Source of the DNA: Nematostella vectensis
Lineage: Eukaryota > Cnidaria > Anthozoa > Actiniaria > Edwardsiidae
Reading direction: 5' to 3'
DNA: 64,000 nucleotides
Assembly: GCF_932526225.1 (NCBI RefSeq)
Contig: NC_064046.1
Span: 5,443,306 to 5,507,305 of the forward strand
Positions 1 to 64,000 of this stretch are shown one piece after another (the first letter of the stretch is position 1; each line of letters begins with the position of its first letter). Both the position numbers and the translations under genes were made by a program. Below the pieces are notes generated by a model. It saw only the letters and a program-made list of their open reading frames with translations. It did no database searches and was not told the DNA's origin.

Positions 1-120
1 GAGATTCCAGGTTCGAGTGCTCTCAGGGTCGCTGATTTTTGCCTCGTTCTTTTGAATCGGCGATTTGCGTCTGCCAACGTGATGTACTAAGTTCGAAATA
101 CTATGTCAACATCGGCCTTG

Positions 121-131
121 TGGCCCAATGG
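121..131 (+). promoter_or_regulatory. RNA polymerase III A box (reference copy)
   Basis: TGGCCCAATGG fits the tRNA A-box consensus TRGYNNARNNG at every fixed position. It spans tRNA nucleotides 8-19. Copies with C13 changed to A still fit; A8, T9, T10 or A18 variants break a fixed position. Confidence 0.9.
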
Positions 132-164
132 ATAAGGCGCCTGACTACGGATCAGGAGATTCCA

Positions 165-175
165 GGTTCGAGTCC
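165..175 (+). promoter_or_regulatory. RNA polymerase III B box (reference copy)
   Basis: GGTTCGAGTCC matches the B-box consensus GGTTCGANTCC exactly. It is the TFIIIC binding site within the T arm. Copies reading GGTTAGAGTCG or GGTTAAAGTCC elsewhere in the array have lost it. Confidence 0.9.
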
Positions 176-186
176 TGGCAGGGTCG

Positions 187-268
187 CTGATTTTTGCCAC
201 GTTCTTTTGAATCGGCGATTTGCGTCTGCCAACGTGATGTACTAAGTTCGAAATACTACGTCAACGTC
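187..268 (+). repeat. Reference 82-bp spacer
   Basis: This is the commonest intergenic unit. It opens with the terminator, has a pyrimidine-rich part, a conserved core GCGTCTGCCAACGTGATGTA and an AT-rich end whose last bases read GTCAACGTC or GTCAACATC before the gene. The 111-bp spacer shares both ends but carries about 29 more bases in the middle (CTATCCTGATCCTTGGCATA and following). I recognise no known element in either spacer. Confidence 0.85.
191..195 (+). terminator. Pol III T-run terminator (reference copy)
   Basis: Five Ts begin four bases after G73 (CTGATTTTT). Nearly every copy carries this run at the same distance. In 156-bp monomers it is seven Ts, or six after the GAATTTTTT variant; at 6681 and related copies it reads GCATATTTTT. 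The leader CTGA is kept even after pseudo-copies. Confidence 0.85.
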
Positions 269-682
269 GGCCTTGTGGCCCAATGGATAAGGCGCCTGAC
301 TACGGATCAGGAGATTCCAGGTTCTAGTCCTGGCAGGGTCGCTGATTTTTGCCTACTTCTTTTGAATCGCCGAATTGCGTCTGCCAACGTAATGTACTAT
401 ATTCGAAATTCTACGTCAACATCGGCCTTGAGGCCCAATGGATAAGGCGCCTGACTACGGATCAGGAGATTCTAGGTTCGATTCCTTGCAGGATCGCTGA
501 TTTTTGCTTCCTTCTTCTTAATCGTGATAATTTTGTTTGCTGTTCGTCTTTTCTATGATGTAGTGTATAATTTTCCTTATTCGAGTCCCGGCAGGGTCCA
601 TGTCTTTGCATAATATTTGATGTTAACGCTATTTGTTTCACGCGAGGTGATTTACTTATTCCAAAATTACAACATTAATCTC

Positions 683-813
683 AGCCCTGTGGCCCAATAT
701 AAACGACGCCTGACTACGGATCAGGAGATTCAGTAACATCAGCCCTATGGCCCAATGGATAAGTCGCCTGAATAGGGATCAGGAGATTCGAGGTTAAAGT
801 CCTGGCAGGGTCT
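683..813 (+). pseudogene. Relic block 1: two tRNA relics and their 3' remnant
   Basis: Reference for the 37 blocks. After gene 424 a spacer leads to a 3' remnant at 575-599 (TTCGAGT loop, CCCGG, CAGGGTC). A diverged spacer follows, then a 5' remnant at 683-731 that stops after the variable region; its D loop reads AATATAAAC, so G18/G19 are gone. Ten bases on lies a full-length degenerate copy at 741-813: A1, loop ATAGGGA (anticodon AGG), T loop TTAAAGT, U73. The remnants break off at similar points, suggesting two old monomers fused by deletion. This first copy has CAGTAAC where all others have CCGTAAC. Confidence 0.85.
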
Positions 814-924
814 CTGATTTTTGCTTCCTTCTTCTCTATCCTGATCCTTGGCATAATAATTTTACTCCTGGCGATTTGCGTCTGGCAATGTGACGTACTA
901 AGTTTGAGATACTACTTTAACGTC

Positions 925-2268
925 GGCCTTGTGGCCCAATGGATAAGGCGCCTGACTACGGATCAGGAGATTCCAGGTTCGAGTCCTGGCAGGGTCTCTG
1001 ATTTTTGCTTCCTTCTTTTCTATCCTGATCCTTGGCATAAAAATTTTACTCCTGGCGATTTGCGTCTGCCAATGGGACGTACTAAGTTCGAGAATTTACT
1101 TCAACGTCGGCCTTGTGGCCCAATGGATAAGGCGCCTGACCTCGGATCAGGAGATTCCAGGTTCGAGTGCTGGCAGGGTCGCTGATTTTTGCCTCGTTCT
1201 TTTGAATCGGCGATTTGCGTCTGCCAACGTGATGTACTAAGTTCAAAATACTATGTCAACATCGGCCTTGTGGCCCAATGGATAAGGCGCCTGACTACGG
1301 ATCAGGAGATTCCAGGTTCGAGTCCTGGCAGGGTCGCTGATTTTTGCCACGTTCTTTTGAATCGGCGATTTGCGTCTGCCAACGTGATGTACTAAGTTCG
1401 AAATACTATGTCAACGTCGGCCTTGTGGCCCAATGGATAAGGCGCCTGACCTCGGATCAGGAGATTCCAGGTTCGAGTCCTGGCAGGGTCCCTGATTTTT
1501 GCCTCGTTCTTTTGAATCGGCGATTTGCGTCTGCCAGCGTGATGTACTAAGTTCGAAATACTACGTCAACGTCGGCCTTGTGGCCCAATGGATAAGGCGC
1601 CTGACTACGGATCAGGAGATTCCAGGTTCGAGTCCTGGCAGGGTCGCTGATTTTTGACTCCTTCTTTTGAATCGGCGAATTGCGTCTGCCAACGTAATGT
1701 ACTATATTCCAAATTCTACGTCAACATCGGCCTTGAGGCCCAATGGATAAGGCGCCTGACTACGGATCAGGAGATTCCAGGTTCGAGTCCTGGCAGGGTC
1801 GCTGATTTTTTTACTCGTTCTTTTGAATCGGCGATTTGCGTCTGCCAACGTGATGTACTAAGTTCGAAATACTATGTCAACATCGGCCTTGTGGCTCAAT
1901 GGATAAGGCGCCTGACTAAGGATCAGGAGATTCCAGGTTCGAGTCCTGGCAGGGTCGCTGATTTTTTTACTCGTTCTTTTGAATCGGCGATTTGCTTCTA
2001 CCAACGTGATGTACTAAGTTCGAAATACTATGTCAACGTCGGCCTTGTGGCCCAATGGATATGGCGTCTGACTACGGATCAGGAGATTCCAGGTTCGAGT
2101 CCTGGCAGGGTCGCTGATTTTTGCCTCCTTCTTTTGAATCGGCGAATTGCGTCTGCCAACGTAATGTACTAAAATCGAAATACTACGTCAACATCGGCCT
2201 TGTGGCCCAATGGATAAGGCGCCTGACTACGGATCAGGAGATTCTAGGTTCGAGTCCTGGCAGGATCG
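925..2268 (+). tRNA. Domain 1: nine tRNA-Arg copies
   Basis: Starts: 925 (ACG, U73), 1109 (TCG with C33, G53-G61 mismatch), 1264 (plain), 1419 (TCG with C33, C73), 1574 (plain), 1729 (A8), 1885 (AAG, also T12), 2041 (T22, T27), 2196 (A70). The first two are 184-bp monomers; 1729 to 1885 and 1885 to 2041 are 156-bp monomers. Genes 1419 to 2196 recur with the same order at 22799-23576 (offset 21,380) and 38248-39025. The plain copies at 1264 and 1574 are the ones I would expect to be functional. Confidence 0.93.
1885..1957 (+). tRNA. tRNA with Arg body and AAG (Leu-type) anticodon
   Basis: Representative of 17 such copies (1885, 4808, 10154, 15287, 21337, 23265, 25878, 36786, 38714, 41327, 48917, 51840, 54772, 56079, 56729, 59119, 61337). 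The loop is CTAAGGA, anticodon at 1918-1920; all else including A20 is arginine-like. Arginyl-tRNA synthetases generally read C35, which is lost here. Leucine tRNAs have a long variable arm, which this lacks. Either it is uncharged or it is misread; the former seems likelier. Confidence 0.85.
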
Positions 2269-14481: not shown

Positions 14482-16940
14482 GGCCTTGTGGCCCAATGGA
14501 TAAGGCGCCTGACTACGGATCAGGAGATTCCAGGTTCGAGTCCTGGCAGGGTCTCTGATTTTTGCTTCCTTCTTTTCTATCCTGATCCTTGGCATAAAAA
14601 TTTTACTCCTGGCGATTTGCGTCTGCCAATGGGATGTACTAAGTTCGAGAATTTACTTCAACCACGGCCTTGTGGCCCAATGGATAAGGCGCCTGACCTC
14701 GGATCAGGAGATTCCAGGTTCGAGTGCTGGCAGGGTCGCTGATTTTTGCCTTGTTCTTTTGAATCGACGATTTGCGTCTGCCAACGTGATGTACTAAGTT
14801 CGAAATACTATGTCAACGTCGGCCTTGTGGCCCAATGGATAAGGCGCCTGACCTCGGATCAGGAGATTCCAGGTTCGAGTCCTGGCAGGGTCCCTGATTT
14901 TTGCCTCGTTCTTTTGAATCGGCGATTTGCGTCTGCCAGCGTGATGTACTAAGTTCGAAATACTACGTCAACGTCGGCCTTGTGGCCCAATGGATAAGGC
15001 GCCTGACTACGGATCAGGAGATTCCAGGTTCGAGTCCTGGCAGGGTCGCTGATTTTTGACTCCTTCTTTTGAATCGGCGAATTGCGTCTGCCAACGTAAT
15101 GTACTATATTCCAAATTCTACGTCAACATCGGCCTTGAGGCCCAATGGATAAGGCGCCTGACTACGGATCAGGAGATTCTAGGTTCGAGTCCTGGCAGGG
15201 TCGCTGATTTTTTTACTCGTTCTTTTGAATCGGCGATTTGCGTCTGCCAACGTGATGTACTAAGTTCGAAATACTATGTCAACATCGGCCTTGTGGCCCA
15301 ATGGATAAGGCGCCTGACTAAGGATCAGGAGATTCCAGGTTCGAGTCCTGGCAGGGTCGCTGATTTTTTTACTCGTTCATTTGAATCGGCGATTTGCTTC
15401 TGCCAACGTGATGTACTAAGTTCGAAATACTATGTCAACGTCGGCCTTGTGGCCCAATAGATAAGGCGCCTGACTACGGATCAGGAGATTCCAGGTTCGA
15501 GTCCTGGCAGGGTCGCTGATTTTTGACTCGTTCTTTTGAATCGGCGATTTGCGTCTGCCAACGTGATGTACTAAGTTCGAAATACTATGTCAACATCGGC
15601 CTTGTGGCCCAATGGATAAGGCGCCTGACTACGGATCAGGAGATTCCAGGTTCGAGTCCTGGCATGGTCGCTGATTTTTTTACTCGTTCTTTTGAATCGA
15701 CGATTTGCGTCTGCCAACGTGATGTACTAAGTTCGAAATACTATGTCAACGTCGGCCTTGTGGCCAAATGAATAAGGCGCCTGACTACAGATCAGGAGAT
15801 TCCAGGTTCGAGTCCTGGCAGGGTCGCTGATTTTTGCCTCGTTCTTTTGAATCGGCGATTTGCGTCTGCCAACGTGATGTACTAAGTTTGAAATACTACG
15901 TCAACGTCGGCCTTGTGGCCCAATGGATAAGGCGCCTGACTATGGATCAGGAGATTCCAGGTTCGAGTCCTGGCAGGGTCTCTGATTTTTGCTTCCTTCT
16001 TTTCTATCCTGATCCTTGGCATAAAAATTTTACTCCTGGCGATTTGCGTCTGCCAATGGGACGTACTAAGTTCGAGAATTTACTTCAATGTCGGCCTTGT
16101 GGCCCAATGGATAAGGCGCCTGACCTCGGATCAGGAGATTCCAATTTCGAGTGCTGGCAGGGTCGCTGATTTTTGCCTCGTTCTTTTGAATCGGCGATTT
16201 GCGTCTGCCAACGTGATGTACTAAGTTCGAAATACTATGTCGTCGTCGGCCTTGTGGCCAAATGGATAAGGCGCCTGACTACGGATCAGGAGATTCCAGG
16301 TTCGGGTCCTGGCAGGGTCGCTGATTTTTGCCTCCTTCTTTTGAATCAGCGAATTGCGTCTGCCAACGTAATGTACTAAGCTTGAAATACTATGTCAACG
16401 TCGGCCTTGTGGCCCAATGGATAAGGCGTCTGACTACGGATCAGGAGATTCCAGGTTCGAGTCCTGGCAGGGTCGCTGATTTGTGCCTCCTTCTTTTGAA
16501 TCGGCGAATTGCGTCTGCCAACGTAATGTACTCAAATCGAAATACTACGTCAAGATCGGCCTTGTGGCCCAATGGATAAGGCGCCTGACTACGGATCAGG
16601 AGATTCCAGGTTCGAGTCCTGGCAGGGTCGCATATTTTTGTCTCGTTCTTTTGAATCGGCGATTTGGGTCTGCCAACGTGATGTACTAAGTTCGAAATAA
16701 TACGTCAACGTCGGACTTCTGGCCCAATGGATAAGGCGCCTGACCACGGATCAAGAGATTCCAGGTTCGAGTCCTGGCAGGGTAGCTGATTTTTGCCTCC
16801 TTCTTTTGAATCGGCAAATTGCGTCTGCCAACGTATATTACTAAGTTCGAAATACTACGTCGACATCGGCCCTGTTGCCCAGTGGATAAGGCGCCTGACT
16901 ACGGATCAGGAGATTCTAGGTTCGATTCCTGGCAGGATCG
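14482..16940 (+). tRNA. Domain 7: sixteen tRNA-Arg copies
   Basis: Starts: 14482 (U73), 14666 (TCG C33, G61), 14821 (TCG C33, C73), 14976 (plain), 15131 (A8), 15287 (AAG), 15443 (A18), 15598 (U68), 15754 (ACA, A13, A19), 15909 (ATG, U73), 16093 (TCG C33), 16248 (A13, G58), 16403 (T27), 16558 (plain), 16713 (ACG C33), 16868 (A70). Compared with domain 3, the stretch between the AAG gene and the U68 gene is shorter by four monomers. Gene 15443 sits at that joint, so the loss probably occurred by exchange between tRNA bodies. Confidence 0.92.
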
Positions 16941-17125
16941 CTGATTTTTGCTTCCTTCTTCTTAATCGTGATAATTTTGTTTGCTGTTCTCCTTTATATG
17001 ATGTAGTGTATAATTTTCCTTATTCGAGTCCCGGCAGGGTCCCTGTCTTTGCATAATATTTGATGTCAACGCTATTTGTTTCACGCGAGGTGATTTACTT
17101 ATTCCAAAATTACAACATTAACCTC

Positions 17126-17256
17126 AGCCCTGTGGCCCAATATAAACGACGCCTGACTACGGATCAGGAGATTCCGTAACATCAGCCCTATGGCCCAATG
17201 GATAAGTCGCCTGAATAGGGATCAGGAGATTCGAGGTTAGAGTCCTGGCAGGGTCT
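17126..17256 (+). pseudogene. Relic block 8 (short subtype)
   Basis: 3' remnant 17018-17042, 5' remnant 17126-17174, degenerate copy 17184-17256 (TTAGAGT). Confidence 0.85.
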
Positions 17257-17367
17257 CTGATTTTTTCTTCCTTCTTTTCTATCCTGATCCTTGGCATAAT
17301 AATTTTACTCCTGGCGATTTGCGTCTGGCAATGTGACGTACTAAGTTCGAAATAATACTTTAACGTC

Positions 17368-18797
17368 GGCCCTATGGCCCAATGGATAAGTCGCCTGACT
17401 ACGGATCAGGAGATTCGAGGTTAGAGTCGTGGCAGGGTCTCTGATTTTTACTTCCTTCTTTTCTATCCTGATCCTTGGCATAATAATTTTACTCATGGCG
17501 ATTTGCGTCTAGCAATGTGACGTACTAAGTTCGAAATACTACTTCAACGTCGGCCTTGTGGCCCAATGGATAAGGCGCCTGACTACGGATCAGGAGATTC
17601 GAGGTTAGAGTCGTGGCAGGGTCTCTGATTTTTGCTTCCTTCTTTTCTATCCTGATCCTTGGCATAATAATTTTACTCCTGGCGATTTGCGTCTGCCAAT
17701 GGGACGTACTAAGTTCGAGAATTTACTTCAACTTCGGCCTTGTGGCCCAATGGATAAGGCGCCTGACCTCGGATCAGGAGATTCCAGGTTCGAGTCCTGG
17801 CAGGGTCGCTGATTTTTGCCTCGTTCTTTTGAATCGGCGATTTGCGTCTGCCAACGTGATGTACTAAGTTCGAAATACTATGTCAACGTCGGCCTTGTGG
17901 CCCAATAGATAAGGCGCCTGACTACGGATCAGGAGATTCCAGGTTCGAGTCCTGGCAGGGTCTCTGATTTTTGCTTCCTTCTTTTCTATCCTGATCCTTG
18001 GCATAACAATTTTACTTCTGCCGATTTGCGTCTAGCAATGTCACGTCCTAAGTTCGAAATACTACTTCAACGTCGGCCTTGTGGCCCAATGGATAAGGCG
18101 CCTGACTACGGATCAGGAGATTCGAGGTTAGAGTCGTGGCAGGGTCTCTGATTTTTACTTCCATCTTTTATATCCTGATCCTTGGCATAAAAATTTTACT
18201 GCTGGTGATTTGCGTCTGCCAATGGGACGTACTAAGTTCGAGAATTTACTTCAACGTCGGCCTTGTGGCCCAATGGATAAGGCGCCTGACCTCGGATCAG
18301 GAGATTCCAGGTTCGAGTCCTGGCAGGGTCGCTGATTTTTGCCTCGTTCTTTTGAATCGGCGATTTGCGTCTGCCAACGTGATGTACTAAGTTCGAAATA
18401 CTATGTCAACGTCGGCCTTGTGGCCCAATAGATAAGGCGCCTGACTTCGGATCAGGAGATTCCAGGTTGGAGTCCTGGCAGGGTCGCTGATTTTTTTACT
18501 CGTTCTTTTGAATCGGCGATTTGCGTCTGCCAACGTGATGTACTAAGTTCGAAATACTATGTCAACGTCGGCCTTGTGGCCCAATGGATAAGGCGTCTGA
18601 CTACGGATCAGGAGATTCCAGGTTCGAGTCCTGGCAGGGTCGCTGATTTTTGCCTCCATCTTTTGAATCGGCGAATTGCGTCTGCCAACGTAATGTACTA
18701 AAATCGGAATACTACGTCAACATCGGCCTTGTTGCCCAATGGATAAGGCGCCTGACTACGGATCAGGAGATTCTAGGTTCGATTCCTGGCAGGATCG
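17368..18797 (+). tRNA. Domain 8: nine tRNA-Arg copies
   Basis: Starts: 17368, 17552 (T-arm damage), 17736 (TCG C33), 17891 (A18, U73), 18075 (T-arm damage), 18259 (TCG C33), 18414 (TCG with U33, A18, T loop TTGGAGT), 18570 (T27), 18725 (T9, A70). Same order as domain 4 at offset 9,877 up to 18570. Gene 18414 is the only copy in the window with a canonical CTTCGGA loop; its counterpart at 33863 has ACG. Confidence 0.9.
18414..18486 (+). tRNA. tRNA-Arg(UCG) with normal U33, single copy
   Basis: Loop CTTCGGA gives anticodon TCG at 18447-18449 behind U33, unlike the 62 TCG copies with C33. Two other changes (A18, T loop TTGGAGT) make its function doubtful. The twin at 33863 keeps ACG, so this is one A-to-T change after the duplication. 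ACG-to-UCG keeps arginine identity. Confidence 0.85.
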
Positions 18798-18983
18798 CTG
18801 ATTTTTGCTTCCTTCTTCTTAATCGTGATAATTTTGTTTGCTGTTCGTCTTTTCTATGATGTAGTGTATAATTTTCCTTATTCGAGTCCCGGCAGGGTCC
18901 ATGTCTTTGCATAATATTTGATGTTAACGCTATTTGTTTCACGCGAGGTGATTTACTTATTCCAAAATTACAACATTAATCTC

Positions 18984-19114
18984 AGCCCTGTGGCCCAATA
19001 TAAACGACGCCTGACTACGGATCAGGAGATTCCGTAACATCAGCCCTATGGCCCAATGGATAAGTCGCCTGAATAGGGATCAGGAGATTCGAGGTTAAAG
19101 TCCTGGCAGGGTCT
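18984..19114 (+). pseudogene. Relic block 9
   Basis: 3' remnant 18876-18900, 5' remnant 18984-19032, degenerate copy 19042-19114 (TTAAAGT). Confidence 0.85.
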
Positions 19115-19225
19115 CTGATTTTTGCTTCCTTCTTCTCTTTCCTGATCCTTGGCATAATAATTTTACTCCTGGCGATTTGCGTCTGCCAATGTGACGTACT
19201 AAGTTCGAGATACTACTTTAACGTC

Positions 19226-20103
19226 GGCCTTGTGGCCAAATGGATAAGGCGCCTGACTACGGATCAGGAGATTCCAGGTTCGAGTCCTGGCAGGGTCTCT
19301 GATTTTTGCTTCCTTCTTTTCTATCCTGATCCTTGGCATAAAAATTTTACTCCTGGCGATTTGCGTCTGCCAATGGGACGTACTAAGTTCGAGAATTTAC
19401 TTCAACGTCGGCCTTGTGGCCCAATGGATAAGGCGCCTGACCTCGGATCAGGAGATTCCAGGTTCGAGTGCTCTCAGGGTCGCTGATTTTTGCCTCGTTC
19501 TTTTGAATCGGCGATTTGCGTCTGCCAACGTGATGTACTAAGTTCGAAATACTATGTCAACATCGGCCTTGTGGCCCAATGGATAAGGCGCCTGACTACG
19601 GATCAGGAGATTCCAGGTTCGAGTCCTGGCATGGTCGCTGATTTTTTTACTCGTTCTTTTGAATCGACGATTTGCGTCTGCCAACGTGATGTACTAAGTT
19701 CGAAATACTATGTCAACGTCGGCCTTGTGGCCAAATGGATAAGGCGCCTGACTACGGATCAGGAGATTCCAGGTTCGAGTCCTGGCAGGGTCGCTGATTT
19801 TTGCCACGTTCTTTTGAATCGGCGATTTGCGTCTGCCAACGTGATGTACTAAGTTCGAAATACTACGTCAACGTCGGCCTTGTGGCCCAATGGATAAGGC
19901 GCCTGACTACGGATCAGGAGATTCCAGGTTCGAGTCCTGGCAGGGTCGCTGATTTTTGCCTACTTCTTTTGAATCGCCGAATTGCGTCTGCCAACGTAAT
20001 GTACTATATTCGAAATTCTACGTCAACATCGGCCTTGAGGCCCAATGGATAAGGCGCCTGACTACGGATCAGGAGATTCTAGGTTCGATTCCTTGCAGGA
20101 TCG
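19226..20103 (+). tRNA. Domain 9: six tRNA-Arg copies
   Basis: Starts: 19226 (A13, U73), 19410 (TCG C33, T stem GCTCT), 19565 (U68), 19721 (A13), 19876 (plain), 20031 (A8, A70). Gene 19410 carries the same T-stem lesion as the partial gene at base 1. Confidence 0.92.
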
Positions 20104-20289
20104 CTGATTTTTGCTTCCTTCTTCTTAATCGTGATAATTTTGTTTGCTGTTCGTCTTTTCTATGATGTAGTGTATAATTTTCCTTATTCGAGTCCCGGCA
20201 GGGTCCATGTCTTTGCATAATATTTGATGTTAACGCTATTTGTTTCACGCGAGGTGATTTACTTATTCCAAAATTACAACATTAATCTC

Positions 20290-20420
20290 AGCCCTGTGGC
20301 CCAATATAAACGACGCCTGACTACGGATCAGGAGATTCCGTAACATCAGCCCTATGGCCCAATGGATAAGTCGCCTGAATAGGGATCAGGAGATTCGAGG
20401 TTAAAGTCCTGGCAGGGTCT
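20290..20420 (+). pseudogene. Relic block 10
   Basis: 3' remnant 20182-20206, 5' remnant 20290-20338, degenerate copy 20348-20420 (TTAAAGT). Confidence 0.85.
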
Positions 20421-20531
20421 CTGATTTTTGCTTCCTTCTTCTCTATCCTGATCCTTGGCATAATAATTTTACTCCTGGCGATTTGCGTCTGGCAATGTGA
20501 CGTACTAAGTTTGAGATACTACTTTAACGTC

Positions 20532-21720
20532 GGCCTTGTGGCCCAATGGATAAGGCGCCTGACTACGGATCAGGAGATTCCAGGTTCGAGTCCTGGCAGG
20601 GTCTCTGATTTTTGCTTCCTTCTTTTCTATCCTGATCCTTGGCATAAAAATTTTACTCCTGGCGATTTGCGTCTGCCAATGGGACGTACTAAGTTCGAGA
20701 ATTTACTTCAACCACGGCCTTGTGGCCCAATGGATAAGGCGCCTGACTACGGATCAGGAGATTCCAGGTTCGAGTGCTGGCAGGGTCGCTGATTTTTGCC
20801 TCGTTCTTTTGAATCGACGATTTGCGTCTGCCAACGTGATGTACTAAGTTCGAAATACTATGTCAACGTCGGCCTTGTGGCCCAATGGATAAGGCGCCTG
20901 ACCTCGGATCAGGAGATTCCAGGTTCGAGTCCTGGCAGGGTCCCTGATTTTTGCCTCGTTCTTTTGAATCGGCGATTTGCGTCTGCCAGCGTGATGTACT
21001 AAGTTCGAAATACTACGTCAACGTCGGCCTTGTGGCCCAATGGATAAGGCGCCTGACTACGGATCAGGAGATTCCAGGTTCGAGTCCTGGCAGGGTCGCT
21101 GATTTTTGACTCCTTCTTTTGAATCGGCGAATTGCGTCTGCCAACGTAATGTACTATATTCCAAATTCTACGTCAACATCGGCCTTGAGGCCCAATGGAT
21201 AAGGCGCCTGACTACGGATCAGGAGATTCCAGGTTCGAGTCCTGGCAGGGTCGCTGATTTTTTTACTCGTTCTTTTGAATCGGCGATTTGCGTCTGCCAA
21301 CGTGATGTACTAAGTTCGAAATACTATGTCAACATCGGCCTTGTGGCCCAATGGATAAGGCGCCTGACGAAGGATCAGGAGATTCCAGGTTCGAGTCCTG
21401 GCAGGGTCGCTGATTTTTTTACTCGTTCTTTTGAATCGGCGATTTGCTTCTGCCAACGTGATGTACTAAGTTCGAAATACTATGTCAACGTCGGCCTTGT
21501 GGCCCAATGGATATGGCGTCTGACTACGGATCAGGAGATTCCAGGTTCGAGTCCTGGCAGGGTCGCTGATTTTTGCCTCCTTCTTTTGAATCGGCGAATT
21601 GCGTCTGCCAACGTAATGTACTAAAATCGAAATACTACGTCAACATCGGCCTTGTGGCCCAATGGATAAGGCGCCTGACTACGGATCAGGAGATTCTAGG
21701 TTCGAGTCCTGGCAGGATCG
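20532..21720 (+). tRNA. Domain 10: eight tRNA-Arg copies
   Basis: Starts: 20532 (U73), 20716 (ACG although its neighbours of this class have TCG; G61), 20871 (TCG C33, C73), 21026 (plain), 21181 (A8), 21337 (AAG preceded by G33), 21493 (T22), 21648 (A70). The twin of 21337 at 36786 has the normal U33, so G33 arose after the 15.4-kb duplication. Confidence 0.92.
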
Positions 21721-21906
21721 CTGATTTTTGCTTCCTTCTTCTTAATCGTGATAATTTTGTTTGCTGTTCGTCTTTTCTATGATGTAGTGTATAATTTTCC
21801 TTATTCGAGTCCCGGCAGGGTCCATGTCTTTGCATAATATTTGATGTTAACGCTATTTGTTTCACGCGAGGTGATTTACTTATTCCAAAATTACAACATT
21901 AATCTC

Positions 21907-22037
21907 AGCCCTGTGGCCCAATATAAACGACGCCTGACTACGGATCAGGAGATTCCGTAACATCAGCCCTATGGCCCAATGGATAAGTCGCCTGAATAGG
22001 GATCAGGAGATTCGAGGTTAAAGTCCTGGCAGGGTCT
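21907..22037 (+). pseudogene. Relic block 11
   Basis: 3' remnant 21799-21823, 5' remnant 21907-21955, degenerate copy 21965-22037 (TTAAAGT). The spacer after it has GGCATAGTAA, shared with blocks 2, 12, 20 and 21. Confidence 0.85.
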
Positions 22038-22148
22038 CTGATTTTTGCTTCCTTCTTCTCTTTCCTGATCCTTGGCATAGTAATTTTACTCCTGGCGATT
22101 TGCGTCTGGCAATTTGACGTACTAAGTTCGAAATACTACTTTAACGTC

Positions 22149-23648: not shown

Positions 23649-23834
23649 CTGATTTTTGCTTCCTTCTTCTTAATCGTGATAATTTTGTTTGCTGTTCGTC
23701 TTTTCTATGATGTAGTGTATAATTTTCCTTATTCGAGTCCCGGCAGGGTCCATGTCTTTGCATAATATTTGATGTTAACGCTATTTGTTTCACGCGAGGT
23801 GATTTACTTATTCCAAAATTACAACATTAATCTC

Positions 23835-23965
23835 AGCCCTGTGGCCCAATATAAACGACGCCTGACTACGGATCAGGAGATTCCGTAACATCAGCCCTAT
23901 GGCCCAATGGATAAGTCGCCTGAATAGGGATCATGAGATTCGAGGTTAAAGTCCTGGCAGGGTCT
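23835..23965 (+). pseudogene. Relic block 12
   Basis: 3' remnant 23727-23751, 5' remnant 23835-23883, degenerate copy 23893-23965 (TTAAAGT). The anticodon stem is further damaged (GATCATGAG), shared only with the twin at 39342. Confidence 0.85.
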
Positions 23966-24076
23966 CTGATTTTTGCTTCCTTCTTCTCTATCCTGATCCT
24001 TGGCATAGTAATTTTACTCCTGGCGATTTGCGTCTGGCAATGTGACGTACTAAGTTCGAGATACTACTTTAACGTC

Positions 24077-39414: not shown

Positions 39415-39525
39415 CTGATTTTTGCTTCCTTCTTCTCTATCCTGATCCTTGGCATAGTAATTTTACTCCTGGCGATTTGCGTCTGGCAATGTGACGTACT
39501 AAGTTCGAGATACTACTTTAACGTC

Positions 39526-40093: not shown

Positions 40094-40279
40094 CTGATTT
40101 TTGCTTCCTTCTTCTTAATCGTGATAATTTTGTTTGCTGTTCGTCTTTTCTATGATGTAGTGTATAATTTTCCTTATTCGAGTCCCGGCAGGGTCCATGT
40201 CTTTGCATAATATTTGATGTTAACGCTATTTGTTTCACGCGAGGTGATTTACTTATTCCAAAATTACAACATTAATCTC

Positions 40280-40410
40280 AGCCCTGTGGCCCAATATAAA
40301 CGACGCCTGACTACGGATCAGGAGATTCCGTAACATCAGCCCTATGGCCCAATGGATAAGTCGCCTGAATAGGGATCAGGAGATTCGAGGTTAAAGTCCT
40401 GGCAGGGTCT
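40280..40410 (+). pseudogene. Relic block 22
   Basis: 3' remnant 40172-40196, 5' remnant 40280-40328, degenerate copy 40338-40410 (TTAAAGT). Confidence 0.85.
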
Positions 40411-40521
40411 CTGATTTTTGCTTCCTTCTTCTCTATCCTGATCCTTGACATAATAATTTTACTCCTGGCGATTTGCGTCTGGCAATGTGACGTACTAAGT
40501 TTGAGATACTACTTTAACGTC

Positions 40522-43500
40522 GGCCTTGTGGCCCAATGGATAAGGCGCCTGACTACGGATCAGGAGATTCCAGGTTCGAGTCCTGGCAGGGTCTCTGATT
40601 TTTGCTTCCTTCTTTTCTATCCTGATCCTTGGCATAAAAATTTTACTCCTGGCGATTTGCGTCTGCCAATGGGACGTACTAAGTTCGAGAATTTACTTCA
40701 ACCACGGCCTTGTGGCCCAATGGATAAGGCGCCTGACCTCGGATCAGGAGATTCCAGGTTCAAGTGCTGGCAGGGTCTCTGACTTTTGCCTCGTTCTTTT
40801 GAATCGACGATTTGCGTCTGCCAACGTGATGTACTAAGTTCGAAATACTATGTCAAAGTCGGCCTTGTGGCCCAATGGATAAGGCGCCTGACCTCGGATC
40901 AGGAGATTCCAGGTTCGAGTCCTGGCAGGGTCCCTGATTTTTGCCTCGTTCTTTTGAATCGGCGATTTGCGTCTGCCAGCGTGATGTACTAAGTTCGAAA
41001 TACTATGTCAACATCGGCCTTGTGGCCCAATGGATAAGGCGCCTGACTACGGATCAGGAGATTCCAGGTTCGAGTCCTGGCAGGGTCGCTGATTTTTGAC
41101 TCCTTCTTTTGAATCGGCGAATTGCGTCTGCCAACGTAATGTACTATATTCCAAATTCTACGTCAACATCGGCCTTGAGGCCCAATGGATAAGGCGCATG
41201 ACTACGGATCAGGAGATTCCAGGTTCGAGTCCTGGCAGGGTCGCTGATTTTTTTACTCGTTCTTTTGAATCGGCGATTTGCGTCTGCCAACGTGATGTAC
41301 TAAGTTCGAAATACTATGTCAACATCGGCCTTGTGGCCCAATGGATAAGGCGCCTGACTAAGGATCAGGAGATTCCAGGTTCGAGTCCTGGCAGGGTCGC
41401 TGATTTTTTTACTCGTTCTTTTGAATCGGCGATTTGCTTCTGCCAACGTGATGTACTAAGTTCGAAATACTATGTCAACGTCGGCCTTGTGGCCCAATGG
41501 ATATGGCGTCTGACTACGGATCAGGAGATTCCAGGTTCGAGTCCTGGCAGGGTCGCTGATTTTTGCCTCCTTCTTTTGAATCGGCGAATTGCGTCTGCCA
41601 ACGTAATGTACTAAAATCGGCCTTGTGGCCCAATGGATAAGGCGCCTGACTACGGATCAGGAGATTCCAGGTTCGAGTCCTGGCAGGGTCGCTGATTTTT
41701 TTACTCGTTCTTTTGAATCGGCGATTTGCTTCTGCCAACGTGATGTACTAAGTTCGAAATACTATGTCAACGTCGGCCTTGTGGCCCAATGGATATGGCG
41801 TCTGACTACGGATCAGGAGATTCCAGGTTCGAGTCCTGGCAGGGTCGCTGATTTTTGCCTCGTTCTTTTGAATCGGCGATTTGCGTCTGCCAACGTGATG
41901 TACTAAGTTCGAAATACTACGTCAACGTCGGCCTTGTGGCCCAATGGATAAGGCGCCTGACTACGGATCAGGAGATTCCAGGTTCGAGTCCTGGCAGGGT
42001 CGCTGATTTTTGCCTACTTCTTTTGAATCGCCGAATTGCGTCTGCCAACGTAATGTACTATATTCGAAATTCTACGTCAACATCGGCCTTGTGGCCCAAT
42101 GGATAAGGCGCCTGACCTCGGATCAGGAGATTCCAGGTTCGAGTCCTGGCAGGGTCGCTGATTTTTGCCTCGTTCTTTTGAATCGGCGATTTGCGTCTGC
42201 CAACGTGATGTACTAAGTTCGAAATACTATGTCAACATCGGCCTTGTGGCCCAATGGATAAGGCGCCTGACTACGGATCAGGATATTCCAGGTTCGAGTC
42301 CTGGCATGGTCGCTGATTTTTTTACTCGTTCTTTTGAATCGACGATTTGCGTCTGCCAACGTGATGTACTAAGTTCGAAATACTATGTCAACGTCGGCCT
42401 TGTGGCCAAATGGATAAGGCGCCTGACTACAGATCAGGAGATTCCAGGTTCGAGTCCTGGCAGGGTCGCTGATTTTTGCCTCGTTCTTTTGAATCGGCGA
42501 TTTGCGTCTGCCAACGTGATGTACTAAGTTCGAAATACTACGTCAACGTCGGCCTTGTGGCCCAATGGATAAGGCGCCTGACTATGGATCAGGAGATTCC
42601 AGGTTCGAGTCCTGGCAGGGTCTCTGATTTTTGCTTCCTTCTTTTCTATCCTGATCCTTGGCATAAAAATTTTACTCCTGGCGATTTGCGTCTGCCAATG
42701 GGACGTACTAAGTTCGAGAATTTACTTCAATGTCGGCCTTGTGGCCCAATGGATAAGGCGCCTGACCTCGGATCAGGAGATTCCAATTTCGAGTGCTGGC
42801 AGGGTCGCTGATTTTTGCCTCGTTCTTTTGAATCGGCGATTTGCGTCTGCCAACGTGATGTACTAAGTTCGAAATACTATGTCGACGTCGGCCTTGTGGC
42901 CAAATGGATAAGGCGCCTGACTACGGATCAGGAGATTCCAGGTTCGGGTCCTGGCAGGGTCGCTGATTTTTGCCTCCTTCTTTTGAATCGGCGAATTGCG
43001 TCTGCCAACGTAATGTACTAAGCTTGAAATACTATGTCAACGTCGGCCTTGTGGCCCAATGGATAAGGCGTCTGACTACGGATCAGGAGATTCCAGGTTC
43101 GAGTCCTGGCAGGGTCGCTGATTTGTGCCTCCTTCTTTTGAATCGGCGAATTGCGTCTGCCAACGTAATGTACTCAAATCGAAATACTACGTCAAGATCG
43201 GCCTTGTGGCCCAATGGATAAGGCGCCTGACTACGGATCAGGAGATTCCAGGTTCGAGTCCTGGCAGGGTCGCTGATTTTTGTCTCGTTCTTTTGAATCG
43301 GCGATTTGGGTCTGCCAACGTGATGTACTAAGTTCGAAATAATACGTCAACGTCGGACTTCTGGCCCAATGGATAAGGCGCCTGACCACGGATCAAGAGA
43401 TTCCAGGTTCGAGTCCTGGCAGGGTAGCTGATTTTTGCCTCCTTCTTTTGAATCGGCAAATTGCGTCTGCCAACGTATATTACTAAGTTCGAAATACTAC

Positions 43501-43582
43501 GTCGACATCGGCCCTGTTGCCCAGTGGATAAGGCGCCTGACTACGGATCAGGAGATTCTAGGTTCGATTCCTGGCAGGATCG
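40522..43582 (+). tRNA. Domain 22: twenty tRNA-Arg copies
   Basis: Twin of domain 13. Starts: 40522 (U73), 40706 (TCG C33), 40861 (TCG C33, C73), 41016 (plain; its spacer ends TATGTCAACATC where the twin has TACGTCAACGTC), 41171 (A8), 41327 (AAG), 41483 (T22), 41619 (plain, short spacer), 41775 (T22), 41930 (plain), 42085 (TCG C33), 42240 (U68), 42396 (ACA), 42551 (ATG), 42735 (TCG C33), 42890 (A13, G58), 43045 (T27), 43200 (plain), 43355 (ACG C33), 43510 (A70). Confidence 0.93.
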
Positions 43583-43767
43583 CTGATTTTTGCTTCCTTC
43601 TTCTTAATCGTGATAATTTTGTTTGCTGTTCTCCTTTATATGATGTAGTGTATAATTTTCCTTATTCGAGTCCCGGCAGGGTCCCTGTCTTTGCATAATA
43701 TTTGATGTCAACGCTATTTGTTTCACGCGAGGTGATTTACTTATTCCAAAATTACAACATTAACCTC

Positions 43768-43898
43768 AGCCCTGTGGCCCAATATAAACGACGCCTGACT
43801 ACGGATCAGGAGATTCCGTAACATCAGCCCTATGGCCCAATGGATAAGTCGCCTGAATAGGGATCAGGAGATTCGAGGTTAGAGTCCTGGCAGGGTCT
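43768..43898 (+). pseudogene. Relic block 23 (short subtype)
   Basis: 3' remnant 43660-43684, 5' remnant 43768-43816, degenerate copy 43826-43898 (TTAGAGT). Confidence 0.85.
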
Positions 43899-44009
43899 CT
43901 GATTTTTTCTTCCTTCTTTTCTATCCTGATCCTTGGCATAATAATTTTACTCCTGGCGATTTGCGTCTGGCAATGTGACGTACTAAGTTCGAAATAATAC
44001 TTTAACGTC

Positions 44010-44916
44010 GGCCCTATGGCCCAATGGATAAGTCGCCTGACTACGGATCAGGAGATTCGAGGTTAGAGTCGTGGCAGGGTCTCTGATTTTTACTTCCTTC
44101 TTTTCTATCCTGATCCTTGGCATAATAATTTTACTCATGGCGATTTGCGTCTAGCAATGTGACGTACTAAGTTCGAAATACTACTTCAACGTCGGCTTTG
44201 TGGCCCAATGGATAAGGCGCCTGACTACGGATCAGGAGATTCGAGGTTAGAGTCGTGGCAGGGTCTCTGATTTTTGCTTCCTTCTTTTCTATCCTGATCC
44301 TTGGCATAATAATTTTACTCCTGGCGATTTGCGTCTGCCAATGGGACGTACTAAGTTCGAGAATTTACTTCAACTTCGGCCTTGTGGCCCAATGGATAAG
44401 GCGCCTGACCTCGGATCAGGAGATTCCAGGTTCGAGTCCTGGCAGGGTCGCTGATTTTTGCCTCGTTCTTTTGAATCGGCGATTTGCGTCTGCCAACGTG
44501 ATGTACTAAGTTCGAAATACTATGTCAACGTCGGCCTTGTGGCCCAATAGATAAGGCGCCTGACTACGGATCAGGAGATTCCAGGTTCGAGTCCTGGCAG
44601 GGTCGCTGATTTTTTTACTCGTTCTTTTGAATCGGCGATTTGCGTCTGCCAACGTGATGTACTAAGTTCGAAATACTATGTCAACGTCGGCCTTGTGGCC
44701 CAATGGATAAGGCGTCTGACTACGGATCAGGAGATTCCAGGTTCGAGTCCTGGCAGGGTCGCTGATTTTTGCCTCCATCTTTTGAATCGGCGAATTGCGT
44801 CTGCCAACGTAATGTACTAAAATCGGAATACTACGTCAACATCGGCCTTGTTGCCCAATGGATAAGGCGCCTGACTACGGATCAGGAGATTCTAGGTTCG
44901 ATTCCTGGCAGGATCG
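44010..44916 (+). tRNA. Domain 23: six tRNA-Arg copies
   Basis: Twin of domain 14. Starts: 44010, 44194 (T-arm damage, U4 in the latter), 44378 (TCG C33), 44533 (A18), 44689 (T27, normal G37), 44844 (T9, A70). Confidence 0.91.
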
Positions 44917-45102
44917 CTGATTTTTGCTTCCTTCTTCTTAATCGTGATAATTTTGTTTGCTGTTCGTCTTTTCTATGATGTAGTGTATAATTTTCCTTAT
45001 TCGAGTCCCGGCAGGGTCCATGTCTTTGCATAATATTTGATGTTAACGCTATTTGTTTCACGCGAGGTGATTTACTTATTCCAAAATTACAACATTAATC
45101 TC

Positions 45103-45233
45103 AGCCCTGTGGCCCAATATAAACGACGCCTGACTACGGATCAGGAGATTCCGTAACATCAGCCCTATGGCCCAATGGATAAGTCGCCTGAATAGGGATC
45201 AGGAGATTCGAGGTTAAAGTCCTGGCAGGGTCT
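45103..45233 (+). pseudogene. Relic block 24
   Basis: 3' remnant 44995-45019, 5' remnant 45103-45151, degenerate copy 45161-45233 (TTAAAGT). Confidence 0.85.
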
Positions 45234-45344
45234 CTGATTTTTGCTTCCTTCTTCTCTTTCCTGATCCTTGGCATAATAATTTTACTCCTGGCGATTTGCG
45301 TCTGGCAATGTGACGTACTAAGTTCGAGATACTACTTTAACGTC

Positions 45345-46222
45345 GGCCTTGTGGCCAAATGGATAAGGCGCCTGACTACGGATCAGGAGATTCCAGGTTC
45401 GAGTCCTGGCAGGGTCTCTGATTTTTGCTTCCTTCTTTTCTATCCTGATCCTTGGCATAAAAATTTTACTCCTGGCGATTTGCGTCTGCCAATGGGACGT
45501 ACTAAGTTCGAGAATTTACTTCAACGTCGGCCTTGTGGCCCAATGGATAAGGCGCCTGACCTCGGATCAGGAGATTCCAGGTTCGAGTGCTGGCAGGGTC
45601 GCTGATTTTTGCCTCGTTCTTTTGAATCGGCGATTTGCGTCTGCCAACGTGATGTACTAAGTTCGAAATACTATGTCAACATCGGCCTTGTGGCCCAATG
45701 GATAAGGCGCCTGACTACGGATCAGGAGATTCCAGGTTCGAGTCCTGGCATGGTCGCTGATTTTTTTACTCGTTCTTTTGAATCGACGATTTGCGTCTGC
45801 CAACGTGATGTACTAAGTTCGAAATACTATGTCAACGTCGGCCTTGTGGCCAAATGGATAAGGCGCCTGACTACGGATCAGGAGATTCCAGGTTCGAGTC
45901 CTGGCAGGGTCGCTGAATTTTGCCACGTTCTTTTGAATCGGCGATTTGCGTCTGCCAACGTGATGTACTAAGTTCGAAATACTACGTCAACGTCGGCCTT
46001 GTGGCCCAATGGATAAGGCGCCTGACTACGGATCAGGAGATTCCAGGTTCGAGTCCTGGCAGGGTCGCTGATTTTTGCCTACTTCTTTTGAATCGCCGAA
46101 TTGCGTCTGCCAACGTAATGTACTATATTCGAAATTCTACGTCAACATCGGCCTTGAGGCCCAATGGATAAGGCGCCTGACTACGGATCAGGAGATTCTA
46201 GGTTCGATTCCTTGCAGGATCG
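45345..46222 (+). tRNA. Domain 24: six tRNA-Arg copies
   Basis: Twin of domain 15. Starts: 45345 (A13, U73), 45529 (TCG C33, G61), 45684 (U68), 45840 (A13), 45995 (plain), 46150 (A8, A70). Confidence 0.92.
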
Positions 46223-46408
46223 CTGATTTTTGCTTCCTTCTTCTTAATCGTGATAATTTTGTTTGCTGTTCGTCTTTTCTATGATGTAGTGTATAATTTT
46301 CCTTATTCGAGTCCCGGCAGGGTCCATGTCTTTGCATAATATTTGATGTTAACGCTATTTGTTTCACGCGAGGTGATTTACTTATTCCAAAATTACAACA
46401 TTAATCTC

Positions 46409-46539
46409 AGCCCTGTGGCCCAATATAAACGACGCCTGACTACGGATCAGGAGATTCCGTAACATCAGCCCTATGGCCCAATGGATAAGTCGCCTGAATA
46501 GGGATCAGGAGATTCGAGGTTAAAGTCCTGGCAGGGTCT
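46409..46539 (+). pseudogene. Relic block 25
   Basis: 3' remnant 46301-46325, 5' remnant 46409-46457, degenerate copy 46467-46539 (TTAAAGT). Confidence 0.85.
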
Positions 46540-46650
46540 CTGATTTTTGCTTCCTTCTTCTCTATCCTGATCCTTGGCATAATAATTTTACTCCTGGCGA
46601 TTTGCGTCTGGCAATGTGACGTACTAAGTTGGAGATACTACTTTAACGTC

Positions 46651-47683
46651 GGCCTTGTGGCCCAATGGATAAGGCGCCTGACTACGGATCAGGAGATTCC
46701 AGGTTCGAGTCCTGGCAGGGTCTCTGATTTTTGCTTCCTTCTTTTCTATCCTGATCCTTGGCATAAAAATTTTACTCCTGGCGATTTGCGTCTGCCAATG
46801 GGATGTACTAAGTTCGAGAATTTACTTCAACCACGGCCTTGTGGCCCAATGGATAAGGCGCCTGACCTCGGATCAGGAGATTCCAGGTTCGAGTGCTGGC
46901 AGGGTCGCTGATTTTTGCCTTGTTCTTTTGAATCGACGATTTGCGTCTGCCAACGTGATGTACTAAGTTCGAAATACTATGTCAACGTCGGCCTTGTGGC
47001 CCAATGGATAAGGCGCCTGACCTCGGATCAGGAGATTCCAGGTTCGAGTCCTGGCAGGGTCGCTGATTTTTGCCTCGTTCTTTTGAATCGGCGATTTGCG
47101 TCTGCCAACGTGATGTACTAAGTTTGAAATACTATGTCAACATCGGCCTTGTGGCCCAATGGATAAGGCGCCTGACTACGGATCAGGAGATTCCAGGTTC
47201 GAGTCCTGGCATGGTCGCTGATTTTTTTACTCGTTCTTTTGAATCGACGATTTGCGTCTGTCAACGTGATGTACTAAGTTCGAAATACTATGTCAACGTC
47301 GGCCTTGTGGCCAAATGGATAAGGCGCCTGACTACGGATCAGGAGATTCCAGGTTCCAGTCCTGGCAGGGTCGCTGATTTTTGCCACGTTCTTTTGAATC
47401 GGCGATTTGCGTCTGCCAACGTGATGTACTAAGTTCGAAATACTACGTCAACGTCGGCCTTGTGGCCCAATGGATAAGGCGCCTGACTACGGATCAGGAG
47501 ATTCCAGGTTCGAGTCCTGGCAGGGTCGCTGATTTTTGCCTACTTCTTTTGAATCGCTGAATTGCGTCTGCCAACGTAATGTACTATATTCGAAATTCTA
47601 CGTCAACATCGGCCTTGAGGCCCAATGGATAAGGCGCCTGACTACGGATCAGGAGATTCTAGGTTCGATTCCTTGCAGGATCG
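46651..47683 (+). tRNA. Domain 25: seven tRNA-Arg copies, end of copy B
   Basis: Starts: 46651 (U73), 46835 (TCG C33, G61), 46990 (TCG C33), 47145 (U68), 47301 (A13, TTCCAGT), 47456 (plain, joint gene), 47611 (A8, A70). From 46835 on it also equals 13205 onward. Confidence 0.92.
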
Positions 47684-47869
47684 CTGATTTTTGCTTCCTT
47701 CTTCTTAATCGTGATAATTTTGTTTGCTGTTCGTCTTTTCTATGATGTAGTGTATAATTTTCCTTATTCGAGTCCCGGCAGGGTCCATGTCTTTGCATAA
47801 TATTTGATGTTAACGCTATTTGTTTCACGCGAGGTGATTTACTTATTCCAAAATTACAACATTAATCTC

Positions 47870-60531: not shown

Positions 60532-62322
60532 GGCCTTGTGGCCCAATGGATAAGGCGAATGACTACGGATCAGGAGATTCCAGGTTCGAGTCCTGGCAGG
60601 GTCTCTGATTTTTGCTTCCTTCTTTTCTATCCTGATCCTTGGCATAAAAATTTTACTCCTGGCGATTTGCGTCTGCCAATGGGACGTACTAAGTTCGAGA
60701 ATTTACTTCAACGTCGGCCTTGTGGCCCAATGGATAAGGCGCCTGACCTCGGATCAGGAGATTCCAGGTTCGAGTGCTGGCAGGGTCGCTGATTTTTGCC
60801 TCGTTCTTTTGAATCGACGATTTGCGTCTGCCAACGTGATGTACTAAGTTCGAAATACTATGTCAACGTCGGCCTTGTGGCCCAATGGATAAGGCGCCTG
60901 ACCTCGGATCAGGAGATTCCAGGTTCGAGTCCTGGCAGGGTCCCTGATTTTTGCCTCGTTCTTTTGAATCGGCGATTTGCGTCTGCCAGCGTGATGTACT
61001 AAGTTCGAAATACTACGTCAACGTCGGCCTTGTGGCCCAATGGATAAGGCGCCTGACTACGGATCAGGAGATTCCAGGTTCGAGTCCTGGCAGGGTCGCT
61101 GATTTTTGACTCCTTCTTTTGAATCGGCGAATTGCGTCTGCCAACGTAATGTACTATATTCGAAATTCAACGTCAACATCGGCCTTGAGGCCCAATGGAT
61201 AAGGCGCCTGACTACGGATCAGGAGATTCCAGGTTCGAGTCCTGGCAGGGTCGCTGATTTTTTTACTCGTTCTTTTGAATCTTCGATTTGCGTCTGCCAA
61301 CGTGATGTACTAAGTTCGAAATACTATGTCAACATCGGCCTTGTGGCCCAATGGATAAGGCGCCTGACTAAGGATCAGGAGATTCCAGGTTCGAGTCCTG
61401 GCAGGGTCGCTGATTTTTTTACTCGTTCTTTTGAATCGGCGATTTGCTTCTGCCAACGTGATGTACTAAGTTCGAAATACTATGTCAACGTCGGCCTTGT
61501 GGCCCAATGGATATGGCGTCTGACTACGGATCAGGAGATTCCAGGTTCGAGTCCTGGCAGGGTCGCTGATTTTTGCCTCCTTCTTTTGAATCGGCGAATT
61601 GCGTCTGCCAACGTAATGTACTAAAATCGGCCTTGTGGCCCAATGGATAAGGCGCCTGACTACGGATCAGGAGATTCCAGCTTCGAGTCCTGGCAGGGTC
61701 GCTGATTTTTTTACTCGTTCTTTTGAATCGGTGATTTGCTTCTGCCAACGTGATGTACTAAGTTCGAAATACTATGTCAACGTCGGCCTTGTGGCCCAAT
61801 GGATATGGCGTCTGACTACGGATCAGGAGATTCCAGGTTCGAGTCCTGGCAGGGTCGCTGATTTTTGCCTCGTTCTTTTGAATCGGCGATTTGCGTCTGC
61901 CAACGTGATGTACTAAGTTCGAAATACTACGTCAACGTCGGCCTTGTGGCCCAATGGATAAGGCGCCTGACTACGGATCAGGAGATTCCAGGTTCGAGTC
62001 CTGGCAGGGTCGCTGATTTTTGCCTACTTCTTTTGAATCGCCGAATTGCGTCTGCCAACGTAATGTACTATATTCGAAATTCTACGTCAACATCGGCCTT
62101 GAGGCCCAATGGATAAGGCGCCTGACTACGGATCAGGAGATTCCAGGTTCGAGTCCTGGCAGGGTCGCTGATTTTTGCCTACTTCTTTTGAATCGGCGAA
62201 TTGCGTCTGCCAACGTATATTACTAAGTTCGAAATACTACGTCGACATCGGCCCTGTTGCCCAATGGATAAGGCGCCTGACTACGGATCAGGAGATTCTA
62301 GGTTCGATTCCTGGCAGGATCG
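60532..62322 (+). tRNA. Domain 35: twelve tRNA-Arg copies
   Basis: Starts: 60532 (anticodon stem AATGA, U73), 60716 (TCG C33, G61), 60871 (TCG C33, C73), 61026 (plain), 61181 (A8), 61337 (AAG), 61493 (T22), 61629 (C53, short spacer), 61785 (T22), 61940 (plain), 62095 (A8), 62250 (T9, A70). Copy of domain 34. Confidence 0.92.
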
Positions 62323-62507
62323 CTGATTTTTGCTTCCTTCTTCTTAATCGTGATAATTTTGTTTGCTGTTCTCCTTTATATGATGTAGTGTATAATTTTC
62401 CTTATTCGAGTCCCGGCAGGGTCCCTGTCTTTGCATAATATTTGATGTCAACGCTATTTGTTTTACGCGAGGTGATTTACTTATTCCAAAATTACAACAT
62501 TAACCTC

Positions 62508-62638
62508 AGCCCTGTGGCCCAATATAAACGACGCCTGACTACGGATCAGGAGATTCCGTAACATCAGCCCTATGGCCCAATGGATAAGTCGCCTGAATAG
62601 GGATCAGGAGGTTCGAGGTTAGAGTCCTGGCAGGGTCT
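62508..62638 (+). pseudogene. Relic block 36 (short subtype)
   Basis: 3' remnant 62400-62424, 5' remnant 62508-62556, degenerate copy 62566-62638 (AGGTT variable region, TTAGAGT), like block 29. Confidence 0.85.
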
Positions 62639-62749
62639 CTGATTTTTTCTTCCTTCTTTTCTATCCTGATCCTTGGCATAATAATTTTACTCCTGGCGAT
62701 TTGCGTCTGGCAATGTGACGTACTAAGTTCGAAATAATACTTTAACGTC

Positions 62750-63500
62750 GGCCCTATGGCCCAATGGATAAGGCGCCTGACTACGGATCAGGAGATTCGA
62801 GGTTAGAGTCGTGGCAGGGTCTCTGATTTTTACTTCCTTCTTTTCTATCCTGATCCTTGGCATAATAATTTTACTCATGGCGATTTGCGTCTAGCAATGT
62901 GACGTACTAAGTTCGAAATACTACTTCAACGTCGGCCTTGTGGCCCAATGGATAAGGCGCCTGACCTCGGATCAGGAGATTCGAGGTTAGAGTCGTGGCA
63001 GGGTCTCTGTTTTTTACTTCCATCTTTTATATCCTGATCCTTGGCATAAAAATTTTACTGCTGGTGATTTGCGTCTGCCAATGGGACGTACTAAGTTCGA
63101 GAATTTACTTCAACGTCGGCCTTGTGTCCCAATGGATAAGGCGCCTGACCTCGGATCAGGAGATTCCAGGTTCGAGTCCTGGCAGGGTCGCTGATTTTTG
63201 CCTCGTTCTTTTGAATCGGCGATTTGCGTCTGCCAACGTGATGTACTAAGTTCGAAATACTATGTCAACGTCGGCCTTGTGGCCCAATAGATAAGGCGTC
63301 TGACTACGGATCAGGAGATTCCAGGTTCGAGTCCTGGCAGGGTCGCTGATTTTTGCCTCCATCTTTTGAATCGGCGAATTGCGTCTGCCAACGTAATGTA
63401 CTAAAATCGGAATACTACGTCAACATCGGCCTTGTTGCCCAATGGATAAGGCGCCTGACTACGGATCAGGAGATTCTAGGTTCGATTCCTGGCAGGATCG
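62750..63500 (+). tRNA. Domain 36: five tRNA-Arg copies
   Basis: Starts: 62750 (GGCCCTA, T-arm damage), 62934 (TCG C33 with T-arm damage), 63118 (T10, TCG C33), 63273 (A18, T27), 63428 (T9, A70). Same order as domain 29; the second gene has TCG where 53438 has AGG. The terminator before 63118 is GTTTTTTA (CTGT leader). Confidence 0.9.
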
Positions 63501-63686
63501 CTGATTTTTGCTTCCTTCTTCTTAATCGTGATAATTTTGTTTGCTGTTCGTCTTTTCTATGATTTAGTGTATAATTTTCCTTATTCGAGTCCCGGCAGGG
63601 TCCATGTCTTTGCATAATATTTGATGTTAACGCTATTTGTTTCACGCGAGGTGATTTAATTATTCCAAAATTACAACATTAATCTC

Positions 63687-63817
63687 AGCCCTGTGGCCCA
63701 ATATAAACGACGCCTGACTACGGATCAGGAGATTCCGTAACATCAGCCCTATGGCCCAATGGATAAGTCGCCTGAATAGGGATCAGGAGATTCGAGGTTA
63801 AAGTCCTGGCAGGGTCT
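63687..63817 (+). pseudogene. Relic block 37
   Basis: 3' remnant 63579-63603, 5' remnant 63687-63735, degenerate copy 63745-63817 (TTAAAGT). Confidence 0.85.
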
Positions 63818-63928
63818 CTGATTTTTGCTTCCTTCTTCTCTTTCCTGATCCTTGGCATAATAATTTTACTCCTGGCGATTTGCGTCTGGCAATGTGACGT
63901 ACTAAGTTGGAGATACTACTTTAACGTC

Positions 63929-64000
63929 GGCCTTGTGGCCAAATGGATAAGGCGCCTGACTACGGATCAGGAGATTCCAGATTCGAGTCCTGGCAGGGTC
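63929..64000 (+). tRNA. tRNA-Arg(ACG) cut by the window end
   Basis: Nucleotides 1-72 of a copy with A13 and T arm CCAGA, the same pair as 54433. The discriminator base lies outside the window. The array clearly goes on. Confidence 0.9.

Follow-up and report, generated by a model that had tools for sequence, protein, structure and literature searches.

Tandem arrays in which one transfer RNA (tRNA) gene is massively repeated have been described in a nematode, an oomycete and an amoeba, and the array reported here, which fills a 64,000-nucleotide stretch of Nematostella vectensis (NC_064046.1, positions 5,443,306 to 5,507,305 of the forward strand; hereafter the window, numbered from 1), belongs to this known kind, its unusual part being a higher-order repeat (HOR) architecture combined with heavy decay of the copies. 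For Nippostrongylus brasiliensis, the sections of the published account drawn on here put tRNA-Trp at close to 150 copies, on a unit of ~200 bp, and tRNA-Ser at 90 copies, separated by an 80-bp spacer (PMC5765664). Phytophthora infestans carries 271 tRNA-Cys copies on a 513-nt unit, about 64% of its tRNA genes lie in same-gene arrays, and these arrays have been ascribed to unequal crossing-over (PMC9584435). Entamoeba holds tandem tRNA arrays of which some have one-tRNA units ([R-TCT], [H-GTG]) and others have units of up to five genes (PMC2652664). For Nematostella and teleosts, clusters that comprise fifty or more tRNA genes are on record (PMC2888827).

The design of the present array, a tRNA body of 73 bp with a spacer of 82 bp, is similar to that of the Nippostrongylus VeCTRs, which are likewise massive one-tRNA repeats with a short, lineage-specific spacer; the nematode arrays differ in the tRNA concerned and in their fewer copies, and neither HORs nor decay of copies are reported in those sections of the account (PMC5765664). 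Single-isoacceptor arrays with hundreds of copies are shared with P. infestans, whose monomeric arrays consist of near-identical copies, whereas in the present array 146 of the 394 unit sequences are distinct, the units fall into three length families and many copies are defective (PMC9584435). Near-identity is indeed absent here, the mean divergence among distinct units of one of these families (family A) being 4.4% in the body and 8.3% in the spacer. Tandem arrangement of tRNA genes, in some cases with a single tRNA per unit, is also common ground with Entamoeba, but copies there are mostly uniform within an isolate, and the units of E. histolytica and E. dispar, unlike those of the present array, carry intergenic short tandem repeats (PMC2652664). 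The human 1q23.3 tRNA variable number tandem repeat and the Arabidopsis SYY cluster are comparable as tandem tRNA repeats for which boundary or tissue-specific roles have been proposed (PMC4041453, PMC12308677). The SYY unit, however, mixes Ser and Tyr genes (PMC12308677), and the human unit is 7.3 kb long with tRNA genes making up <6% of it (PMC4041453), against 47% of the family A unit here. A single search, limited to openly licensed text, turned up no description of HORs of a tRNA gene. The initial annotation had set the locus apart from animal clusters of mixed isoacceptors, a premise weakened by the published single-tRNA arrays of Nippostrongylus, P. infestans and Entamoeba. The array is best explained, in our judgement probably, as the satellite-like product of the tandem amplification of a eukaryotic tRNA-Arg(ACG) gene.

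Composition of the array and competence of its copies

The window consists throughout (1..64000, + strand) of head-to-tail units derived from tRNA-Arg(ACG), and the array passes beyond both window ends. ARAGORN called 325 tRNA genes across the window, all on the + strand, and 0 on five first-order Markov resamples of the window. Units were located by anchoring on the anticodon arm on both strands of the window, which gave 395 anchors on the + strand and 0 on the - strand. These counts confirm the initial annotation's claim of more than 320 same-strand copies of one tRNA-Arg(ACG) gene, unbroken over at least 64 kb. Since the spacings between anchors take nine values only (155, 184, 156, 58, 259, 136, 258, 185 and 282 bp), the array can be regarded as free of any inserted transposon, gene or other sequence. 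It comprises 357 full-length units of 136-282 bp on a single strand and 37 partial units of 58 bp. Three unit families share a common tRNA body, namely A (155/156 bp), B (184 bp) and C (258/259 bp), and the whole window is accounted for by these families and the partial copies. Copies within 1-5100 score 47-63 bits with the Rfam tRNA model RF00005, and the longest open reading frames (138 aa on the + strand, 75 aa on the - strand) both recur along the array.

Internal boxes A and B, an oligo-T terminator and the lack of an encoded CCA constitute the layout of a eukaryotic RNA polymerase III (Pol III) tRNA gene. In this array CTGATTTTT stands directly 3' of the tRNA body and CCA is not encoded. 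A prokaryote, phage or plasmid origin was rejected by pattern and homology searches. The conserved spacer pattern had zero exact matches in IMG/VR or GTDB contigs and the tRNA-body pattern zero matches in IMG/VR. The phage and plasmid matches to the 1.5 kb tested were short, with about 77-85% identity, and the annotated ones fall on tRNA genes; they are therefore attributable to generic tRNA homology. An antisense Rfam match to the Plastid-ycf2 5'UTR (untranslated region) lay far under the gathering score and was dropped as tRNA-like similarity. Decay of CpG through methylation was likewise discarded, the spacers bearing no sign of it with a CpG observed/expected ratio of 1.58, well above 1; the ratio in the bodies is 0.60.

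The anticodons of the 357 full units are distributed as ACG 229, TCG 63, AGG 37, AAG 18, ACA 5 and ATG 5, so that the description of the array as a single isoacceptor is sound by descent and fails by anticodon. U33 is near-universal in tRNAs, and it occurs together with ACG in 223 of the 357 copies. C33 accompanies the UCG anticodon in 62 of 63 copies; one other body type combines C33 with A34 in 6 copies, and this form may represent an intermediate or have arisen independently. ARAGORN's Leu, Pro, Cys and His calls appear to be mutated tRNA-Arg copies and not genuine isoacceptor genes. As a caution, for species with such arrays the number of tRNA genes taken from an assembly can lie far above the functional number and include Leu, Pro, Cys and His isoacceptors that are spurious.

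A structural test covering all stem pairs and eleven invariant positions was satisfied by 134 of the 357 copies, 110 of which have ACG. Near-consensus boxes A and B plus a terminator of T4 or longer were found in 191 copies, which bears out the earlier statement that many copies retain Pol III boxes and terminators; that statement was incomplete, as the canonical ACG structure survives in only 110 copies and is combined with boxes and terminator in 101. Judged from these features, about 100 copies (about a third) would still be competent to yield normal tRNA-Arg by Pol III, and the array may still produce some tRNA.

Higher-order growth and the record of selection

When all units of the window were compared, the number whose best match is an adjacent unit was 0. 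The commonest lag to the best-matching unit was 95 units, or about 15.4 kb (60 units), and because best matches lie at block-scale lags and not among neighbours, the array is seen to have grown in multi-unit blocks, like higher-order satellites. These blocks span 0.8-3.5 kb, with 1306 bp as the commonest length, and multi-monomer blocks are more alike than adjacent monomers, which is the HOR hallmark of satellites. The largest event is a duplication whose two copies mismatch at 21 of 15,097 usable bases and are about 99.9% identical in the core (Table 1), and further blocks of about 3.4-5.3 kb match each other at 97-99%.

The old divergence between families and the recent variation within them differ in what they record. 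Between the consensuses of families A and C, 4 of 73 body sites and 24 of 82 spacer sites differ (p=1e-4), and between those of B and C 6 of 73 and 42 of 111 (p=5e-6); as bodies differ far less than spacers, they appear to have been under constraint, or subject to selective homogenisation, during the divergence of the families. Among recent changes, rare alleles of family A number 33 per 73 sites in the body and 35 per 82 in the spacer (p=0.81), and 21 of the 33 rare body alleles fall at a pair, invariant or anticodon position, against a random expectation of 61.6%. For the 72 distinct bodies, 13 intact ones were observed against 10.2+/-2.6 simulated, and 29 with intact promoter boxes against 34.0+/-3.8 simulated. 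Recent blocks, compared on trimmed BLAST alignments, gave body/spacer ratios of 0.47-1.46 in 22 overlapping and not independent comparisons, none of them significant. Broken forms were amplified as well, with 62 copies of the C33/UCG form, 37 of the AGG form and 36 of family C (0 canonical). Recent mutations are thus as frequent in bodies as in spacers and random in harm, which favours satellite-like evolution over strong selection on each copy. The options put forward in the initial annotation are sensible ones. It was previously held that sequence alone does not separate a functional role from an inert satellite; on this evidence it partly can.

Two lines of analysis were set aside. Slower bodies seen in mafft-aligned block ends proved to be an artefact of misaligned ends, the signal being abolished in trimmed BLAST alignments, and the binning of unit pairs by spacer distance is biased through regression to the mean.

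Several points weigh against satellite-like evolution. Gene conversion confined to the bodies could equally lower body divergence between families, the spacers of family C align poorly to those of the other families, and the distinct units that were counted are not wholly independent of one another. Pairwise divergence among distinct units of family A is 0.044 in the body and 0.083 in the spacer, a ratio of 0.54, so that weak selection may be ongoing. Of the 357 copies, 356 keep a terminator of T4 or longer <=22 nt from the 3' end, though T5 tolerates single changes. Neutrality is, moreover, no proof of silence, because one gene among hundreds can be transcribed and yet drift.

The preferred explanation and its rivals

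Under the preferred reading of the locus as a tRNA gene turned satellite-like, the founder genes would have been functional, with selection acting on a smaller set. In the old families A, B and C the spacers diverged and the tRNA body was retained. The array then grew by multi-unit HOR blocks, mostly of about 1-3.5 kb, and by the one 15.4-kb tandem duplication, good and broken genes being copied alike, presumably by unequal crossing-over between misaligned blocks, and recent mutations strike bodies and spacers equally. Each copy, being one of hundreds, would now be effectively free to decay, and the bulk of the array would behave as satellite DNA. The array would then represent a resolved case of a tRNA gene becoming satellite DNA, with old copies constrained, recent ones drifting and growth in nested blocks, and would make it possible to study the point at which a Pol III gene in many copies slips out of selection.

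A working high-dose tRNA-Arg(ACG) locus, whose size would be kept by the transcription of many copies for the supply of tRNA-Arg or of tRNA fragments and whose decayed copies would be tolerated passengers, could account for the conservation of bodies across unit families, for the 101 copies that unite intact structure, near-consensus boxes and terminator, and for the 42 copies identical to the consensus. The Arabidopsis SYY cluster, silent in most tissues and active in root-cap cells (PMC12308677), lends such a locus a precedent. We nevertheless deem it unlikely, as recent mutations bear no sign of selection, broken variants have been amplified to dozens, and in P. infestans the number of tRNA genes shows no more than a modest correlation with codon use (PMC9584435). 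Selection could alternatively act on binding at the level of the array, its dense TFIIIC/Pol III sites acting as a boundary or replication-fork barrier or making up a pericentromeric block. The 191 copies with both boxes and terminator on a single strand are compatible with this, and the human 1q23.3 tRNA tandem repeat, to which CTCF binds, is a proposed boundary (PMC4041453); yet retention of boxes among distinct bodies is not above chance (29 observed against 34.0 expected) and the window contains no flanks showing what the array would separate. A chromatin domain of this sort is improbable. A TFIIIC/Pol III domain, for example pericentromeric or a fork barrier, that arose from one tRNA gene, with HOR growth via recombination at tRNA-stalled forks, seems just as improbable.

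Least probable, and indeed very doubtful, is that a smaller real array was lengthened in the assembly by false joins or the merging of haplotypes. Divergence between the 15.4-kb copies is only about 0.14%, as it might be between two haplotypes joined in tandem, but 146 distinct units and many unique block orders cannot stem from a few repeated reads, and inflation would change the length of the array and not its existence.

Unit families and annotated features

Family A counts 231 copies (155/156 bp together with a 136-bp deletion form) with a spacer of 82 bp, family B 89 copies and family C 36 copies, the last with 0 tRNAs that pass the canonical test. The consensus tRNA-Arg(ACG) body occurs in 42 identical copies in the window. 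The 58-bp partials are placed one behind every C unit, plus one behind the 282-bp fusion unit, and the usual order within a block is C, partial, B, B and several A. Coordinates are collected in Table 1.

Table 1 Features of the tRNA-Arg(ACG)-derived array, in window coordinates
Feature	Position	Strand	Remark
Tandem duplication, period 15,448 bp	16040..47711	+	16040-32262 vs 31488-47711
Example family A unit, 155 bp	1264..1418	+	
Intact consensus tRNA-Arg(ACG) body	1264..1336	+	Rfam tRNA 59.3 bits
Box A TGGCCCAATGG of copy 1264..1336	1271..1281	+	identical 11-mer in 256/357 copies
Box B GGTTCGAGTCC of copy 1264..1336	1315..1325	+	identical 11-mer in 227/357 copies
T5 Pol III terminator of copy 1264..1336	1341..1345	+	
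Example family B unit, 184 bp	925..1108	+	~29 bp of spacer absent from family A
Example family C unit, 258/259 bp	424..682	+	
Putative tRNA 3'-half remnant TCGAGTCCCGGCAGGGTCC in family C spacer	581..599	+	read from sequence
58-bp partial tRNA; T arm, box B and terminator absent	683..740	+	37 copies
UCG-anticodon variant with C33 replacing U33	1109..1181	+	double change in 62 copies
AAG-anticodon variant, body otherwise Arg-type	1885..1957	+	18 copies

The remnant TCGAGTCCCGGCAGGGTCC in the family C spacer would, from its sequence, be the relic of a lost second tRNA copy. Its T stem, at 581-599 and at the equivalent place in other family C units, is slightly different, and it perhaps derives from an older or different tRNA-Arg copy.

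One irregular stretch, 55238-57812, contains the sole 282-bp fusion unit, at 55555-55836, together with the shortest block, which begins at 57021 and measures 792 bp, and likely marks recombination breakpoints.

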